This document shows positions 4,350 to 32,545 of a stretch of DNA of 37,465 nt, in pieces. The translations under genes were made by a program, and so were the position numbers. Where the stretch lies: the NCBI GenBank assembly GCA_003152315.1, contig PLZV01000020.1, positions 34,530-71,994 on the forward strand, read 5' to 3'. Position 1 is the first letter of the stretch. The number at the start of each line of letters is the position of its first letter. Source of the stretch: Verrucomicrobiota bacterium (lineage in GTDB: Bacteria; Verrucomicrobiota; Verrucomicrobiia; Palsa-1439). The notes under the pieces were generated by a model that did not search any database, was not told the DNA's origin, and worked only from the letters and a program-made list of their open reading frames with translations.

Positions 4350-5219
4350 CTACATCGACTTGACTTCGACGCGGACAGGCTCCTTGAGGTGGAGTTCGCG
4401 CTGGGGGAACGGAATCTCAATACCGTGGTGCTTAAACTTGTCCCAGATAGCAAAGTTTAACTGGCTTTCGAGTGAGCCCGCCCGGTGCGCCATATCTGAC
4501 GACCACACTCGCAGTTCAAAGTTGAGCGAGCTTTCGCCGAATTCCTTGAAGACCACCCCGGGGGCAGGGCTCTTGAGTACATTCGGGTTGGCATCGGCAA
4601 CTTCGAGGAGAAGTTTTTCCACCAGGTGCGGATCACTGCCGTAGCTTACCCCGACGCTGATGCGAAAGCGCACACGTGGGTCGATGTGCGTCCAATTGAC
4701 AACGCGGCCAGAAATGAACTCAGAATTTGGCACGATGACCATGATATTGTCATTGGTCAGAACATGCGTGGCGCGGGCGCCGATGCGTTCGACCTTCCCC
4801 ACGGTGTTGTTGCCAAGATCAACACGGTCGCCAACCTGGATCGGCCGTTCGGCAAGAATGATCAACCCGCTGACGAAGTTGCTGACGATGGTTTGAAGCC
4901 CGAACCCGATCCCAACGCCCAGCGCGCCCGCAATGACCGCCAGGGAACTGAGGTTCACGCCCACCGTTTCCAAGCCGATGAGCATCCCTAGCACCAGCAC
5001 GATATAACCCACAATCCGCGCGATGGCATATTGCTGGCCGACGTCGAGCTTGGTGCGTGCGAGCACACGCGTCCGCAAGACGCGGCGAACCAGCCGCGAC
5101 AAGAGGACAACAGCCAATAGAACAACCGTGAACTCCACGATCGTCGCCAGCGAGACCCATGTCTGCCCCAATTGAAACAGCGGCTTGGTGAAGATCCCGA
5201 ATATTTCACTCCAGGTCAT
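4350..5219 (-). CDS. MscS-family small-conductance mechanosensitive channel
   Basis: The 289-aa protein has the standard size and layout of MscS. Two membrane helices lie near residues 21-41 and 68-88. TM3 (about 91-122) contains the Gly/Ala-rich pore helix AGALGVGIGFGLQTIVSNF. The cytosolic beta and alpha/beta domains follow, with PNSEFISGRVVNW and the C-terminal IPFPQR signature. It releases small solutes under hypo-osmotic membrane tension at the inner membrane. It begins four bases after the stop of the upstream oxidoreductase gene, so the two are almost certainly cotranscribed. A functional link to the oxidoreductase is not obvious. Confidence 0.95.
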   Translation of the reverse strand: MTWSEIFGIFTKPLFQLGQTWVSLATIVEFTVVLLAVVLLSRLVRRVLRTRVLARTKLDVGQQYAIARIVGYIVLVLGMLIGLETVGVNLSSLAVIAGALGVGIGFGLQTIVSNFVSGLIILAERPIQVGDRVDLGNNTVGKVERIGARATHVLTNDNIMVIVPNSEFISGRVVNWTHIDPRVRFRISVGVSYGSDPHLVEKLLLEVADANPNVLKSPAPGVVFKEFGESSLNFELRVWSSDMAHRAGSLESQLNFAIWDKFKHHGIEIPFPQRELHLKEPVRVEVKSM

Positions 5220-5223
5220 TCAA

Positions 5224-6360
5224 TCACTTTCCGATGGTGACCCACTTCCGCGTTTTGGCGGATTTTTCGACGGCATCGAGCACGATCTGATCTGCGAGGC
5301 CGTCCTCGAAGGTCGGTTGAACAGAATGTTTGTCTGCCACCGCGTTGATAAAGTCGGCGATCGTGTGGACGAAGGTGTGTTCGTAGCCGATGATGTGACC
5401 CGGCGGCCACCAATTGCCGACGTAGGGATGCACCCCGCCGCCTTGCGTGACCAGGATGTCGCGAAAACCACGGCGATCATCCGGGTCGGCCTCGTTGTAA
5501 TACTTCAGCCGGTTCATGTCCTCGAAATCGAAAACGAGCGACCCCTTGCTGCCGTTCACTTCAATTTGGATGCCGTTCTTGCGGCCGAGTGCGAACCGCG
5601 TGGCTTCAAGGTTGGCGAGCGCCCCATTCTCGAAGCGACCGATGAACATAACCGCGTCATCGACAGTGACCTTGCCCTTCTTGCTCGACTCGCCTGGCAA
5701 TGGCCGTTCCTTGATAAACGTTTCCATCTGGCCGCACACCTCGCTGAACTCGCCGACAAGGTAGCGACCGAGATCAATAATGTGGGCATTGATATCGCCG
5801 TGCGTGCCCGAGCCGGCGATTTTGCTCTGTAGTCGCCAAACCAGTGGAAAGTTAGGATCAACAATCCAATCTTGTGCGTAGCGCGCCCGATAGTGGTAAA
5901 TCCTGCCGAGTTCGCCCGCGGCGATCATCTTCTTTGCCAGAACAATCGCGGGAATCCGCCGGTAGTTGTGGCAAACCATGTTGACGACCCCGGCTTTCTT
6001 CACCGCGTCGACCATCTGTCGTGCCTGCTTCACATCCATGCCGAGAGGTTTTTCGCAGAGGATCGCCTTGCGGGCTTTGGCGGCAGCAATGGCAATCTCG
6101 GCGTGCGTGTCGTTAGGGGTGTTGATGTCCACGATGTCGATGGTCGGATCATTGATGACCTCGCGCCAATCAGTCACAAACTGGTTCCATCCCCAGCGGT
6201 GGCAGGCATTCATTACCCCCGTCCTGTCACGCCCGCAGATGACCCTCATGATTGGGCGGGCCTTGAGGTCGAAGAATTTATCCGCTTTCAGCCACGCGTT
6301 GGAATGTGCGCGGCCCATGAATTTGTAGCCGATCATTCCCACATTCAGGGTCTTTGGCAT
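5224..6360 (-). CDS. Gfo/Idh/MocA-family NAD(P)-dependent oxidoreductase
   Basis: The 378-aa protein has an N-terminal Rossmann fold (VGMIGYKFMGRAHSNAW) and the CEKPLGMD motif whose lysine contacts nicotinamide in this family. A C-terminal alpha/beta substrate domain follows with GSGTHGDINAHIIDLGRYL, a placement typical of sugar or inositol dehydrogenases. Substrate cannot be told from sequence; family members oxidise sugars, cyclitols or glycosides. ATG 6360 is chosen over the upstream frame extension to 6381 because GAGAGG lies seven bases before it. It is the first gene of a two-gene leftward operon with mscS and shares a divergent promoter region with the aminotransferase gene. Confidence 0.92.
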   Translation of the reverse strand: MPKTLNVGMIGYKFMGRAHSNAWLKADKFFDLKARPIMRVICGRDRTGVMNACHRWGWNQFVTDWREVINDPTIDIVDINTPNDTHAEIAIAAAKARKAILCEKPLGMDVKQARQMVDAVKKAGVVNMVCHNYRRIPAIVLAKKMIAAGELGRIYHYRARYAQDWIVDPNFPLVWRLQSKIAGSGTHGDINAHIIDLGRYLVGEFSEVCGQMETFIKERPLPGESSKKGKVTVDDAVMFIGRFENGALANLEATRFALGRKNGIQIEVNGSKGSLVFDFEDMNRLKYYNEADPDDRRGFRDILVTQGGGVHPYVGNWWPPGHIIGYEHTFVHTIADFINAVADKHSVQPTFEDGLADQIVLDAVEKSAKTRKWVTIGK

Positions 6361-26757: not shown

Positions 26758-29625
26758 TCAGTTTTCCGCCACCTCCCTCGCCAGGACGTGTTTCAGAAAC
26801 TGGCCGGTGTACGACTTCTTATTCTGGGCAACCTCTTCGGGCGGGCCTTCGGCGATGATCCGACCGCCGGCGTCGCCGCCTTCGGGGCCAAGGTCGATAA
26901 CCCAATCCGCGGACTTGATGACGTCGAGGTTGTGTTCGATGACAAGCACCGTGTTGCCGGCGTCGCGGAGCTTGTTGAGCACTTCCAGCAGCTTGGCGAT
27001 GTCGGCGAAATGCAGGCCAGTGGTCGGTTCATCCAGGATATACAGCGTCCGTCCCGTGGCCCGCTTGGCCAATTCAGTGGAGAGCTTTACGCGCTGGGCT
27101 TCACCGCCGCTCAGCGTGGTGGCTTGCTGGCCGATCTTGAGATAGCCGAGCCCGACTTCCTGCAGCGTCTGGAGAATGTCACGAATCTTCGGCACCGGCC
27201 GAAAGAAGACCTCCGCTTCGTCCACGGTCATGTCGAGGACATCGGCAATGTTCCGTCCCTTGTAGGTGATCTCCAGCGTCTCGCGGCTGTAACGTTTGCC
27301 GCCGCACTGTTCACAAGTCACATACACGTCCGGTAGAAAATGCATTTCGATCTTGATGATCCCATCCCCCTGACACGCCTCGCAGCGCCCACCTTTGACG
27401 TTGAAGCTGAACCGACCGGGACCGTACCCGCGCACCTTCGCATTCGGCAATTGAGCGAACAACGTGCGGATGTGGTTGAACGAGCCCGTGTAGGTCGCGG
27501 GATTCGACCGCGGCGTGCGACCGATGGGCGATTGATCAATGACGATCACCTTGTCGAGTTCTTCCAGGCCCAGGATCGCTTCGTGCGCGCCGGGCCGGTC
27601 CTTCGCTCGATAGAATTTTCGGAAAAGCGCCTTGCGCAAGATGTCGTCCACCAGCGTGCTCTTACCCGACCCGCTCACCCCGGTTACGCACGTAAGCAAA
27701 CCCAGCGGGAATCGCGCATCGATTTTCTTGAGGTTGTTTTCATTCGCGCCCTTCACAATGAGCCAGCCCTTTTTCGGAGCGTGGCGCGTTTTCGGTATGG
27801 GAATCTGCAATTCACCGCGGAGATACCGCCCCGTTAGCGATTTCGGGCTGTCGAGAATCGTCTGGATTGGACCGGCCGCGACCAGATAGCCACCGTGCAA
27901 TCCTGCGCCGGGACCAAGATCGACGATGTAGTCCGCCGCGCGAATCGTGTCCTCGTCGTGTTCGACGACAATCACAGTGTTGCCGAGATCGCGCAACCCC
28001 TTGAGTGTCTCCAGCAGGCGATGATTGTCGCGCTGGTGCAAGCCGATGCTCGGTTCGTCGAGCACGTACAACACACCGACGAGGCCAGCGCCCACTTGCG
28101 TCGCCAACCGAATCCGTTGCGCTTCGCCGCCTGAAAGCGTGTCGCTCTGGCGGTCGAGCGTGAGATACGCCAGGCCGACGTTCTTGAGAAAGGTCAGCCG
28201 CGCGCGCACTTCCTTGACGATCTCACCAGCCACCTGCTCTTCAAATTCCGTTAGCGCCAACCCCGCCAGGAAATCGAGCGCGTCCTCGATGCTCAGGCGT
28301 GTGAAGTCGATGATGGATTTGTCACCGACCGTGACCGCCAGGCTTTCGGGCCGCAACCGCGCGCCCTTGCAATCGGGACACTGCATCGCGACCATGAAAT
28401 GCTGCAGGCGCACCTTCGTGAACTCGCTGTCCGTCTCCTCGTAGAGCCGTTCCAAGTTCGGGATGACACCCTCGAAGACCTTGCTCATCTTGCGCCACGC
28501 GCCCTTGCGCCAATGGGTAAATTCAATCTCCGTGTCGCCGGAGCCATGCAACAATTCCTTCTGCACCTTCTCCGGTAAATCCTTGAACGGCTGTTCGAGA
28601 TCGATGCTGTAATGCTTGGAGAGACCACGCAGCAGCATCTTGTAATAGATCATCAACCGCCGTCCGCCGCGACGCCACGCCGCGATGGCACCATTCGCGA
28701 CCGATTTGGTGCGGTCGGGAACGATCAGGTCGGGATCGAAGAACAGTTTCGTGCCAAGGCCGTGGCAGGTTTTGCACGCGCCGTCCGGCGAATTGAACGA
28801 GAAATGCCGCGGCGTGAACTCACCGTAGCTGATGCCGCATTCGGGACAGGCGTTCTGGCTGCTAAAGAGGCGTTCGGACCACGGCACGGTCACGGGCGTC
28901 GTGGCGGTGCGGTAGAGTACCTGCAACAAGCCCGTGCCCCACTTCAGCGTGGTCTCGACGGAATCTGCGAGACGCGCCCGTGTTTTCACGGAGGCTATCA
29001 GCCGGTCCACGACCAGCTCGATACTGTGATTGCGCCGCTTGTCGAGTTTAACGGCTTCCGTGACGTCAAGAATGGCGCCATCGACACGCGCGCGCACGAA
29101 CCCCTCGCGCTTGATGCGGGCGAACACGTCGCGAAACTCACCTTTGCGACTGCGCACCAGCGGCGCCAGGAGCATGAGTTGCGCCCCCTCGCCCAAATTG
29201 AGAATCTGCTCGACGATCTGGCTGGTGGTCTGCGTCGTGATCGGGCGCCCGCAACGGTAGCAATGCGGCTTGCCGATGTTCGCAAAGAACAGGCGCAAGT
29301 ACTCGTAAATCTCCGTCGTCGTGGCGATGGTCGAGCGCGGATTGTTGCCGCCAAATCGCTGTTCAATGGCGATGGCCGGTGACAACCCTTCGATGTAATC
29401 GACGTCCGGTTTCTGGAGTTGCTCGAGAAAATTCCGGGCATAGGCCGAGAGGCTTTCCACGTACTTGCGCTGCCCTTCTGCGTAAATCGTGTCAAAAGCG
29501 AGACTGGACTTGCCCGAGCCACTCAACCCTGTGACAACGATTAACTTCTCACGGGGGAGAGTCAGGTGTATATTCTTGAGGTTGTGCTCGCGTGCACCAG
29601 CTATAATGATAGAGTCTTTGGACAT
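26758..29625 (-). CDS. uvrA: Excinuclease ABC subunit A
   Basis: The 955-aa protein has the duplicated UvrA ATPase: N-terminal Walker [11 protein letters not shown]-terminal GVSGSGKST, and two LSGGEAQR signatures. Three Cys clusters bind zinc: CYRCG, CPECG/CKTCHG with CPDCKGARL, and CEACQGDG with CEQCGGKRY. It finds bulky lesions in nucleotide-excision repair and loads UvrB. ATG 29625 gives the normal N-terminus ([20 protein letters not shown]). The open frame continues upstream to 30840 but that part is antisense to the kinase gene. No good Shine-Dalgarno is seen. Confidence 0.97.
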
Positions 29626-29670: not shown

Positions 29671-29796
29671 GCACTGGAATTTGCTTGTCCTAGCGAAATT
29701 CCGCGGAAATGCGTGGCATATCACCTGCTTAAAAGAAGCTTGCCGTGGCACCAGGCCAGACGAAGCAAACAATGAAACTAGGGGAAAAAGGGAAAT

Positions 29797-30123
29797 ATGG
29801 AAACGACCGCAACAGAATTTGACCAGGGCGTCGCCAAACACAGCGACAAGCAGTTGGAACAATTGCACACCCAGATGGAAGCGCTGTACCAAAACCTGCG
29901 CACCGTCCGTCATGCCATCAACAACAACGTCGCCGTCATCATGGCCATGGCCGAGCTGACCCAGCGCAACCCGGCCCAATGCGCCAAACTCAGCCAGCTC
30001 TGCCTCGAGAAGTCGCCCCAGATCGCCGCCGCCATCGGCGGGTTCACGGAACTCTTTGAAGGCGCTGTCAGCTTGCAGGAAGAACTGGATCGCCCGGTCA
30101 CCAGCAGCACAACCACGACGTAG
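29797..30123 (+). CDS. Small helical protein resembling a histidine-kinase dimerisation helix
   Basis: The 108-aa product has an N-terminal coiled-coil-like helix (about 15-36). It is followed by [20 protein letters not shown] (34-53), which looks like a kinase H-box with H39 and N42-N44, then a second helix (about 60-95). No ATPase domain follows. It could be a phosphotransfer or kinase-binding protein for the hybrid kinase encoded 87 bases downstream. An AAGGGAAAT just before the ATG is a modest ribosome site. Function is inference; the family has no name I know. Confidence 0.7.
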
Positions 30124-30210: not shown

Positions 30211-31799
30211 GTGAGTACCGCCAAACGTAAATCGGAAGATGTCACCGGGGAGCAGGTCCGCTCTCTGGAAAACATCAATCGTCTCAAAGCTGAGTTCCTC
30301 GCCAACGTCAGCCACGAACTCCGCACTCCCGTTCACGCCATCATTGGCTATACCGAACTGCTCCTCGACGCCGTTTACGGACAGATGACCGATGAGCAGG
30401 AGGAGTCTGTCCGTTATATCCGCGAGAGTGCCCAGGATCTCCTTAGCCTCGTCAACAATCTCCTCGACCTCGCGCGCATCGAAAGCGGCCGCACGGATCT
30501 GATCCTCGAGTCGTTCGACTTGCGCGGCCTCGTCGGTGAATTGATCGGCCAACTCAAGCCCCTCGCCGACGGCAAGCGCCTGGAACTCAATTCCACCATC
30601 TTGATCGACAACGCCGTCATCCGCACCGACCGCGGCAAGCTCAAACAAATCCTTGTCAACCTCATCGGCAACGCCATCAAATTCACCGAACATGGGAAAG
30701 TCATAATCGCGATTTGTGCGGACCTGAACCCCGTTGCTGGCGCCGCTCCCGGTTCTCCCCGGCTCGCGATCAGCGTGCAGGACACGGGCATCGGAATCTC
30801 CGCCGACAAACTCGACCGGCTTTTCGAGAAATTTTATCAAGTGGACACAGCTCCGCCAACCGTTCCCACGAAGGCACCGGCCTCGGCCTCTACATCACGA
30901 AACAGTTGGTCGAAGTCCTCGCGGGTCGCGTGGAGATCAAGAGTGCACCCGGCAAGGGCACAACCATCACCATCTCCATTCCCCAGAACTTCGAGGAAAT
31001 CGAAGGCATCCAGCGCCTGCGCACTCGTCTCGCCGCCGCCAGCACGACCGCGCCGGACATCACGGGAGACAGCCAACGCCTCGTCCTGGTCGTCAGTGAA
31101 CGCCCCGACATCGCGCGCATCCTCGCTGCCGGCCTCGGCTCGCACGAGTACAATGTCCGCACCGCGCGCGACGGCGAAGAGGCGGTGACGCTGGCCGTCA
31201 AGCTCCACCCGCTCGTGATTCTGCTCGATGCGCACGACTCCTCTTCGGAACTCTGGTCCGTCTTCCAGGAACTGAAGACCAGGCCCGAAACCAAGGACAT
31301 CCCCACCATTTTCCTTTCCAACGATTCGACCCGCGGCGTGGGCACCCCGCTGAGCGTCGCTTCCGCACTCAACCCGCGCGACGTGTTGCGCCGCGTGCGC
31401 GCCGCCACTACCACGGGCAAGAAGAACGTGCTTATCGTGGACGACGAGGAAAGTTTTCGCGACGTGCTCAAGTGCGCCCTCAGCGAAGAAGGGTACCAGC
31501 TTTCGGAGGCCGTCACGGGCAACGAGGCCATCGCAAAACTGCAAACCTCCACACCCGACTTGCTGCTGCTCGATTTGAAACTCCCCGATACCGATGGTTG
31601 GGGGGTCATGCGCTACATTACCCAACAGCCGCGATTGAAAGACATGCAGGTGCTGATCATCTCCGGCATCATGCTCGACGAAGGCCAGTCGGAGGAAATC
31701 CAAACGCATGACTATGCCTTCATCAACAAGGGCGAGTTCAAGGTCAACAACGTCCTCGACAAGGTCGCGGATCTGTTGGAGGTGAACGGCACCCCATGA
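30211..31799 (+). pseudogene. Hybrid sensor histidine kinase with two receiver domains, frameshifted
   Basis: The N-terminal part reads from GTG 30211. It has H35 in the H-box [10 protein letters not shown]154 in the N-box [20 protein letters not shown] and FEKFYQVD. The frame then runs off into nonsense. The next motif, [12 protein letters not shown], is in another frame starting near 30849, and that frame continues to the stop at 31799 through a degenerate receiver (LVLVVSERPD) and a full receiver (VLIVDDEESF, LLLLDLKLPDTDGW). One extra A near 30846-30848 (GACACAGC to GACAACAGC) would join both into about 529 aa. No sensor domain or membrane helix precedes the kinase core. The stop overlaps the next start as ATGA. 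Confidence 0.8.
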
Positions 31800-32545
31800 A
31801 TCTGTTGCTGATTGAGGACAATCAACATCTGCAGCGGATCTTCTACGAGAAATTCCGTCGCGAAGGCTTCAACGTCACCGTTGCCAACGATGGCCGTCAA
31901 GGTCTCCAATGCGCCGCGGAAATCCGCCCGGATGTGATCCTGCTCGACATCATGATGCCCAACATGGATGGCTTCGAGGTCCTCACCCATCTCCGCGCCG
32001 ATCCCAACCTGAGCAGCATCCCGGCCTTCGTCCTTTCCAACCGCGCCACAAGCAGCGATGTCCAGCACGCGTTGGCCCTCGGTGCACGCCAATTTTTCCC
32101 CAAGGGCATATCCGCTCTCGAGGATATCGCCCGGCAGATTCGCGCCACCTGCGGCTTCAAGAAAGTCCTCGTCTGCACGAACAGCCCCACGCTGGCCGAG
32201 CCCATTGTCAACGCGCTGGCTCATCCGCACCTGCTTTGCGCGGTCGTCACCGTTCTCGCCGAGATCGTCAACGCCGCCAACCGTGACACCCCGGAGCTGA
32301 TCGTCCTCGACGCGCGCGTGCCGAACGCGGTCACCCTGCTCCAGCAACTCAAGACACATCCGGCGGCGAAATCCATCCCCGTCATCGCCGTGGGAAACCC
32401 GGGGCAACCGTTGAACCGCGCCGATGAGTTCATCGACAGCGCCCGACTCGTTTCCGATCTCCGCCCCACCGTCATGAAACGCCTGGGCCTCGAAGAGATC
32501 CCCGCCGCAACACCGAGCAACGCCACCGTCCCCGCCAACGCCTGA
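31796..32545 (+). CDS. Response regulator with two receiver domains
   Basis: The 249-aa protein has a canonical first receiver: acidic pair in LLLIEDNQ, phospho-acceptor in VILLDIMMPNMDGFEV, conserved Ser/Thr in FVLSNRA and Lys in FFPKG. The second receiver (about 122-205) starts VLVCTNSPT, losing the acidic pair, but keeps LIVLDARVP. The C-terminus has no DNA-binding domain. It likely accepts phosphate from the overlapping kinase and acts by protein contact. The ATG (31796-31798) overlaps the kinase TGA. Confidence 0.9.
   Translation: MNLLLIEDNQHLQRIFYEKFRREGFNVTVANDGRQGLQCAAEIRPDVILLDIMMPNMDGFEVLTHLRADPNLSSIPAFVLSNRATSSDVQHALALGARQFFPKGISALEDIARQIRATCGFKKVLVCTNSPTLAEPIVNALAHPHLLCAVVTVLAEIVNAANRDTPELIVLDARVPNAVTLLQQLKTHPAAKSIPVIAVGNPGQPLNRADEFIDSARLVSDLRPTVMKRLGLEEIPAATPSNATVPANA

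Follow-up and report, generated by a model that had tools for sequence, protein, structure and literature searches.

What is the role of a protein that carries the H-box helix of a histidine kinase and no ATPase domain? The question is raised by a small gene at positions 29797..30123 (+ strand) of the window, that is, the whole stretch of 37,465 nucleotides analysed here from a Verrucomicrobiota bacterium (assembly GCA_003152315.1, contig PLZV01000020.1). An earlier note, made from the letters alone, had placed an H-box-like helix with H39 in this gene and, together with the hybrid kinase and the double-receiver regulator encoded downstream, had proposed an unusual phosphorelay of five signalling domains. 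The 108-amino-acid (aa) product probably serves as a relay in bacterial signalling. Its significance extends beyond the window, in that the gene belongs to a conserved family of probable DHp proteins devoid of the ATPase domain.

The gene, its product and its predicted promoter

Translation of the open reading frame (ORF) confirms the H-box-like helix with H39, the putative phospho-acceptor (codon at 29911..29913, +), in a protein of 108 aa. The absence of an ATPase domain after the H-box, which had also been claimed, is borne out as well: the ORF ends after the second helix, and no HATPase match is obtained. Thus the conserved phospho-acceptor histidine of the H-box is present as in histidine kinases, the ATPase (HATPase_c) domain is absent from the chain, and a degenerate ATPase-like C-terminal domain of the Spo0B/ChpT kind is absent from the ORF. 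The description of the product as a DHp-only protein, i.e., an H-box helix hairpin without an ATPase domain, is based on translation, Pfam, alignment, a structural model and a profile-profile match.

The ORF is a real gene under purifying selection, because over the 98 first codons the closest relative (G002) differs from it by 13 synonymous changes and 1 non-synonymous change, the differences at codon positions 1, 2 and 3 being 2, 0 and 12, respectively. Nine genomes of the window's taxonomic family, its own included, carry the gene with identities of 100 to 60% (96 to 60% in the eight others). It is present in a single copy in its own genome, where one strong match was found and the runner-up (E 0.019) lies within an 896-aa frame.

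Upstream of the gene is a sigma-54-like -24/-12 element, TGGCATATCACCTGCT (29714..29729, +). The form TGGCAY-N6-TGCW is the -24/-12 consensus of sigma-54 promoters, and it recurs upstream of the gene in 12 of the 74 loci described below: in all nine members of the window's taxonomic family, with diverged spacers, and in three loci of a second family. In 200 draws of control windows the mean was 0.35 loci of 74 and the maximum 3. The genome has a gene for RpoN. Across the genome as a whole the motif shows no enrichment (29 + 25 sites versus 26 + 25 for the reversed pattern), so a sigma-54 promoter is predicted here because of the recurrence at nine of nine orthologous positions and not because of enrichment. 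Where uvrA adjoins the gene, the element falls in the intergenic region between the two.

Resemblance to DHp domains

In Pfam searches at E<=0.1, 49 of the 74 family members matched HisKA and 25 matched SPOB_a, with best E-values of 3.1e-05 and 4.6e-05, respectively, and further DHp models were matched by some of them (HisKA_2 by 12, HWE_HK by 7 and HisKA_3 by 3 members), as were generic coiled-coil models. The window protein gave nothing over a Pfam cut-off, and none of the eleven members among the matches listed passed any gathering cut-off: for HisKA (PF00512, cut-off 26.9 bits) the window protein scored 15.7 bits and the best of the ten other members listed 24.1 bits, and for SPOB_a (PF14689, cut-off 28.1 bits) the best score among the matches listed was 22.4 bits. 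The HPt profile (PF01627) did not match the window protein at E<=1.

A profile-profile comparison was made by hhalign between the family profile and 30 HisKA segments of the window's own genome (one of them, L166, being out of frame and used with X at its stops). This gave a score of 51.5 and a probability of 96%, with histidine aligned on histidine over 31 columns, all of them in helix 1; helix 2 had no sequence match to kinases in the same comparison. The decoy maxima were 14.0 for 60 column shuffles, 12.7 for the reversed profile and 42.6 for 60 block-of-7 shuffles, in which stretches of the H-box survive. Therefore, the H-box resemblance is beyond chance, since 51.5 stands against at most 14.0 for column-shuffled and 12.7 for reversed profiles. 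In addition, the top PDB sequence match was the DHp domain of a blue-light-activated kinase of the HWE type (E 0.0037).

The suggestion of a DHp- or HPt-like fold in the earlier note agrees with the AlphaFold model, in which the single chain folds into a hairpin of two helices, equivalent to one half of the four-helix bundle of a DHp domain, with long helices at residues 3-57 and 59-98 and the histidine in helix 1 (mean pLDDT 82.5, pTM 0.56, from an alignment of only four sequences). Foldseek gave none at E<=0.001 among 504 matches at E<=10, and VIA-align gave Z-scores of up to 11.5 to the unrelated hairpins IpaB, PspA/Vipp1 and PI3K iSH2, which is below about 13, the tool's level for helical bundles, with no kinase DHp among its best 50 rows; fold comparison cannot separate a DHp hairpin from other helical hairpins. 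Homology to the H-box helices of DHp domains is considered likely, and a DHp-type dimer would be plausible.

Distribution and conservation of the family

At E<=1e-4 a 14-member profile matched 81 of the 384 class genomes searched, in 7 of which the sole match was a long frame, kinase-like or other; homologues, mostly short ORFs, are thus present in 74 of the 384. The alignment comprises 74 rows, one locus and one protein per genome, the window included (the row of L039 carries a one-residue extension at the N-terminus), and the 13 weakest matches (E 3.6e-07 to 4.9e-05), which lie in frames of 244 to 1357 aa and are kinase-like by length, were left out. When 387 genomes drawn from the whole phylum were searched at E<=1e-6, five carried members, all five in the window's class, the split of the 387 by class not being given. 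A search of PHROGs yielded no match and a search of NCBIfam nothing informative.

Outside the window's taxonomic family, identity to the window protein is 16-34%. Even so, the conservation of H39 in homologues, which had been named as a check on the phospho-acceptor proposal, is complete: H39 is the only invariant column (74 of 74 rows), although the histidine was also invariant in the search profile, which favours rows that keep it. The preceding residue is R or K in 74 of 74, and asparagine occupies H+3 in 71 rows and H+4 in 68; further along the chain, F83 and P59 are each shared by 71 rows, and E53 and A50 each by 69. An acidic residue at H+1 is found in just 31 of 74 (D in 29, E in 2) and is absent from the other 43, including the window protein, which has A40. 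In one genus, g12 (six rows: L112, L122, L125, L127, L132 and L136), HDVNG replaces HxxNN, so that the asparagine at H+4 is lost and the histidine is kept. A divergent member at 4692-5801 (-) in L139 may be a fusion, for its hairpin extends into about 100 more helical-looking residues before an ECF sigma operon.

Gene neighbourhoods

Two kinds of neighbourhood are common among the 74 loci. In 31, including the window, uvrA is the divergent neighbour (26758..29625, - strand, its start set by homology with G002), and in 20 the gene is followed, in the same orientation, by one for an ECF-type sigma factor, which is within 1 kb in 18 of these and usually followed by an unknown protein of 102 aa and then by an LTXXQ-like protein; uvrA and the ECF sigma gene occur together in none of the 74. 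A branch of the tree with a support of 98 splits the rows into two halves of 37, one made up of 31 uvrA and 6 other loci and the second of 20 sigma and 17 other loci, many other forks being unresolved.

Kinase or receiver genes lie within 1 kb of the gene in 10 of the 74 loci, belonging to five families (f1, f9, f51, f36 and f6), and none were found within that distance in the other 64; adjacency was judged by gene distances, and the domain census of passing ORFs binned weak matches too. Five of the ten are in the window's family, one is in f9 (PhoB/PhoR-like), one in f51, where a 1065-aa hybrid kinase lies 42 bases downstream, one in f36 (a weak match) and two in f6, with lone receivers upstream. 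Candidate partners may be encoded immediately before the gene, in the same orientation, in L124 and L132 (lone receivers) and in L091 (a weak receiver match).

The adjoining kinase and double-receiver regulator

The hybrid kinase and the double-receiver protein announced for the region downstream of the gene are both there as ORFs, the kinase being split in this assembly. The hybrid kinase (30211..31799, +) comprises HisKA, HATPase, a degenerate receiver and a receiver, and is read in frame 1 (30211-31188) and frame 3 (30714-31799). The break is at ACACA (30845..30849, +), which has two bases more than the relatives (ACAC for AC); the extra bases shift the frame inside the ATPase domain and are absent in G001, G002 and G006. 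The break may be a real mutation or an assembly error. A programmed frameshift was rejected, since G001, G002, G006 and G008 have an intact kinase that reads through in one frame and the first three lack the extra bases. The kinase ends in a receiver, and HPt is not among its Pfam matches. The regulator (31796..32545, +), described from Pfam and translation, has a canonical receiver 1 and a receiver 2 without the acidic pair. As read from the sequence, receiver 1 of the kinase has VSER instead of the acidic pair and receiver 2 of the regulator has CTN, so two of the four receivers look degenerate and the other two look canonical and competent.

The kinase and the double receiver follow the gene in five of the nine members of the window's taxonomic family (the window, G001, G002, G006 and G008), and no such pair adjoins it in other lineages among the 74 loci. 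The small protein is present without the double receiver in G003, G004, G007 and G009 (with less certainty in G003 and G004, whose contigs stop just behind the gene, G004 being only 75% complete), and conversely G010 has the double receiver and lacks the small protein. Accordingly, the five-domain phosphorelay of the earlier note stands in part: the pair does adjoin the gene in five of nine, but the regulator is lacking in four, the kinase is split here and two of the four receivers look degenerate. A dedicated partnership with this pair as a general rule was rejected, because presence is uncoupled within the window's own taxonomic family. A split kinase with its ATPase domain in the next gene is also unsupported: where a hybrid kinase comes next it is a whole one, and at other loci the following gene is of a different kind.

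Proposed mechanism and its alternatives

The reading preferred here, to which a probability of roughly 0.6 is given, is that the small protein is a histidine phosphotransferase consisting of a DHp hairpin only and acting like Spo0B, ChpT and PhyT. Two copies would associate, each hairpin contributing two helices to a four-helix bundle of the DHp type, and H39 would be exposed on the first helix of both chains. Lacking the ATPase domain, the small protein would be unable to phosphorylate itself and would take the phosphoryl group from a phosphorylated receiver, here most simply the C-terminal receiver of the adjoining hybrid kinase, and hand it to another, for example receiver 1 of the regulator; the opposite flow, as a phosphate sink, would be equally possible. 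Because the kinase lacks an HPt and ends in a receiver, a step between kinase and regulator is vacant, and the small protein would fit there. The family predates the partnership with this pair and extends beyond it, so other receivers would have to serve its members elsewhere. In favour of a phosphotransferase count the invariance of H39, the H-box register in common with HisKA, the matches to DHp models in Pfam and PDB, and the hairpin model. Kinases need an acidic H+1 for autophosphorylation, and the relaxation of this position is in keeping with a protein that obtains its phosphate from a receiver instead of from ATP. The kinase or receiver genes beside ten of the 74 loci also speak for this reading. 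Against it count the sub-cut-off Pfam matches, the profile match confined to helix 1, the 64 loci with no kinase or receiver nearby, the four family members missing the double receiver, the inability of fold comparison to single out a DHp hairpin and the bias of the search profile towards rows with the histidine.

The same residues can be read in another way. A receiver phosphatase or phosphate sink, in which the DHp-like bundle binds receivers, the asparagines at H+3 and H+4 drain the phosphate and H39 serves for contact or as a dead-end acceptor, is an unlikely alternative. The H+4 position serves phosphatase activity in kinases, asparagine is found there in most rows (68/74; 71/74 at H+3), and the family has no fixed partner gene. 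However, the sole invariant residue is the histidine, H+4 is G in the six HDVNG rows of one genus, and a pure phosphatase would not need its histidine to be more invariant than its asparagine.

It is less probable still that the protein is a pseudo-kinase partner which forms mixed four-helix bundles with the DHp domains of kinases and inhibits them or is phosphorylated in trans by their ATPase domains. The H-box homology is clear, the genome offers 41 HisKA matches as possible partners, and in the case of EnvZ a separate ATPase domain reportedly can phosphorylate the isolated DHp in trans; yet the acid at H+1, needed for ATP-driven phosphorylation, is missing from 43 of 74 members, and helix 2 shows no kinase sequence match. 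Exchange between receiver and histidine is therefore favoured over trans-phosphorylation by kinases, because the ATPase domain is absent and the acidic H+1 is lost in most members. The remaining alternative, a helical hairpin outside two-component signalling with its invariant histidine used for metal, structure or protein contact, for example in a uvrA- or ECF sigma-linked pathway, would suit the prevalence of uvrA and ECF sigma operons over two-component genes in the neighbourhoods, the Pfam scores below cut-off among the matches listed and the coiled-coil matches of some members, but it is improbable, since HisKA, SPOB_a, HWE_HK and HisKA_2 all match in one specific register and the match is lost by column-shuffled profiles.

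Relationship to known phosphotransferases

Spo0B of Bacillus subtilis sporulation (SPOB_a) resembles the small protein in having a helical hairpin with an H-box, and in Spo0B this serves ATP-independent phosphotransfer between receivers; it differs in its C-terminal domain, which is derived from an ATPase domain, whereas the small protein is a hairpin only. In the portions of the papers drawn on here, the four-helix bundle of Spo0B is formed by two subunits (PMC3433190) and Spo0B is termed a degenerated kinase (PMC5898713). Similarly, ChpT of Caulobacter is a dimeric DHp protein that carries a phospho-histidine on its first helix and links a hybrid kinase with a regulator, but it has an atypical Bergerat-fold C-terminal domain (PMC3433190, in part), and none is encoded here. 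Spo0B and ChpT are tabulated as DHp bearers in an excerpt of a paper on DesK:DesR (PMC5231405). PhyT of Sphingomonas, whose kinase-derived DHp is of HisKA_2/HWE origin, takes phosphate over from a single-domain receiver and delivers it to a regulator, within a relay that controls a sigma factor; unlike the 108-aa protein, PhyT is predicted to be a kinase anchored in the membrane, and its ATPase domain is degenerate (PMC5898713, in part). In these excerpts Spo0B, ChpT and PhyT are all described as kinase-like proteins, and ChpT and PhyT keep an ATPase-like domain (PMC3433190, PMC5898713).

HPt domains (PF01627) would occupy the same place in a relay, but in an HPt protein the four-helix bundle is usually a monomer (PMC3433190, in part); the window's own genome has HPt domains as well (4 matches). 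With the HisKA domain (PF00512) of kinases the small protein shares the H-box helix, the hydrophobic register and the aligned histidine, and it differs from these kinases in the missing ATPase domain, the unconserved acid at H+1 and the R or K before the histidine in every row.

Parts of a review (PMC12189002) and of a domain census (PMC4558063) were also consulted for background. In the collection of papers searched, nothing relevant emerged on stand-alone DHp proteins, and for Verrucomicrobia no phosphotransferase of the DHp-only kind was found described; the domain census (PMC4558063) aside, only unrelated work came up. If the preferred reading, a DHp-only phosphotransferase, is true, the family would be the minimal natural form of histidine phosphotransferase, Spo0B, ChpT and PhyT retaining a dead ATPase domain, and it would offer a handle on phosphorelays in Verrucomicrobia.

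A broader and distinctly speculative idea is that this class-wide, vertically inherited and normally single-copy "naked DHp", having shed its ATPase domain, might be a shared phosphorelay hub in Verrucomicrobia which exchanges phosphate with the receivers of several of the many kinases (41 HisKA matches here). It might then have different outputs in the two ancient branches, beside uvrA in one (with the sigma-54 promoter predicted in the window's family) and at the head of an ECF sigma operon in the other. The link to a sigma factor known from PhyT is here one of gene neighbourhood only, and it is found in another clade of the protein family. The ECF sigma operon itself is conserved 3' of the gene in L136, L132, L127, L125, L124, L122 and L112, where the LTXXQ-like protein has a signal- or TM-like start; the 102-aa protein has no Pfam match and could be an anti-sigma factor.
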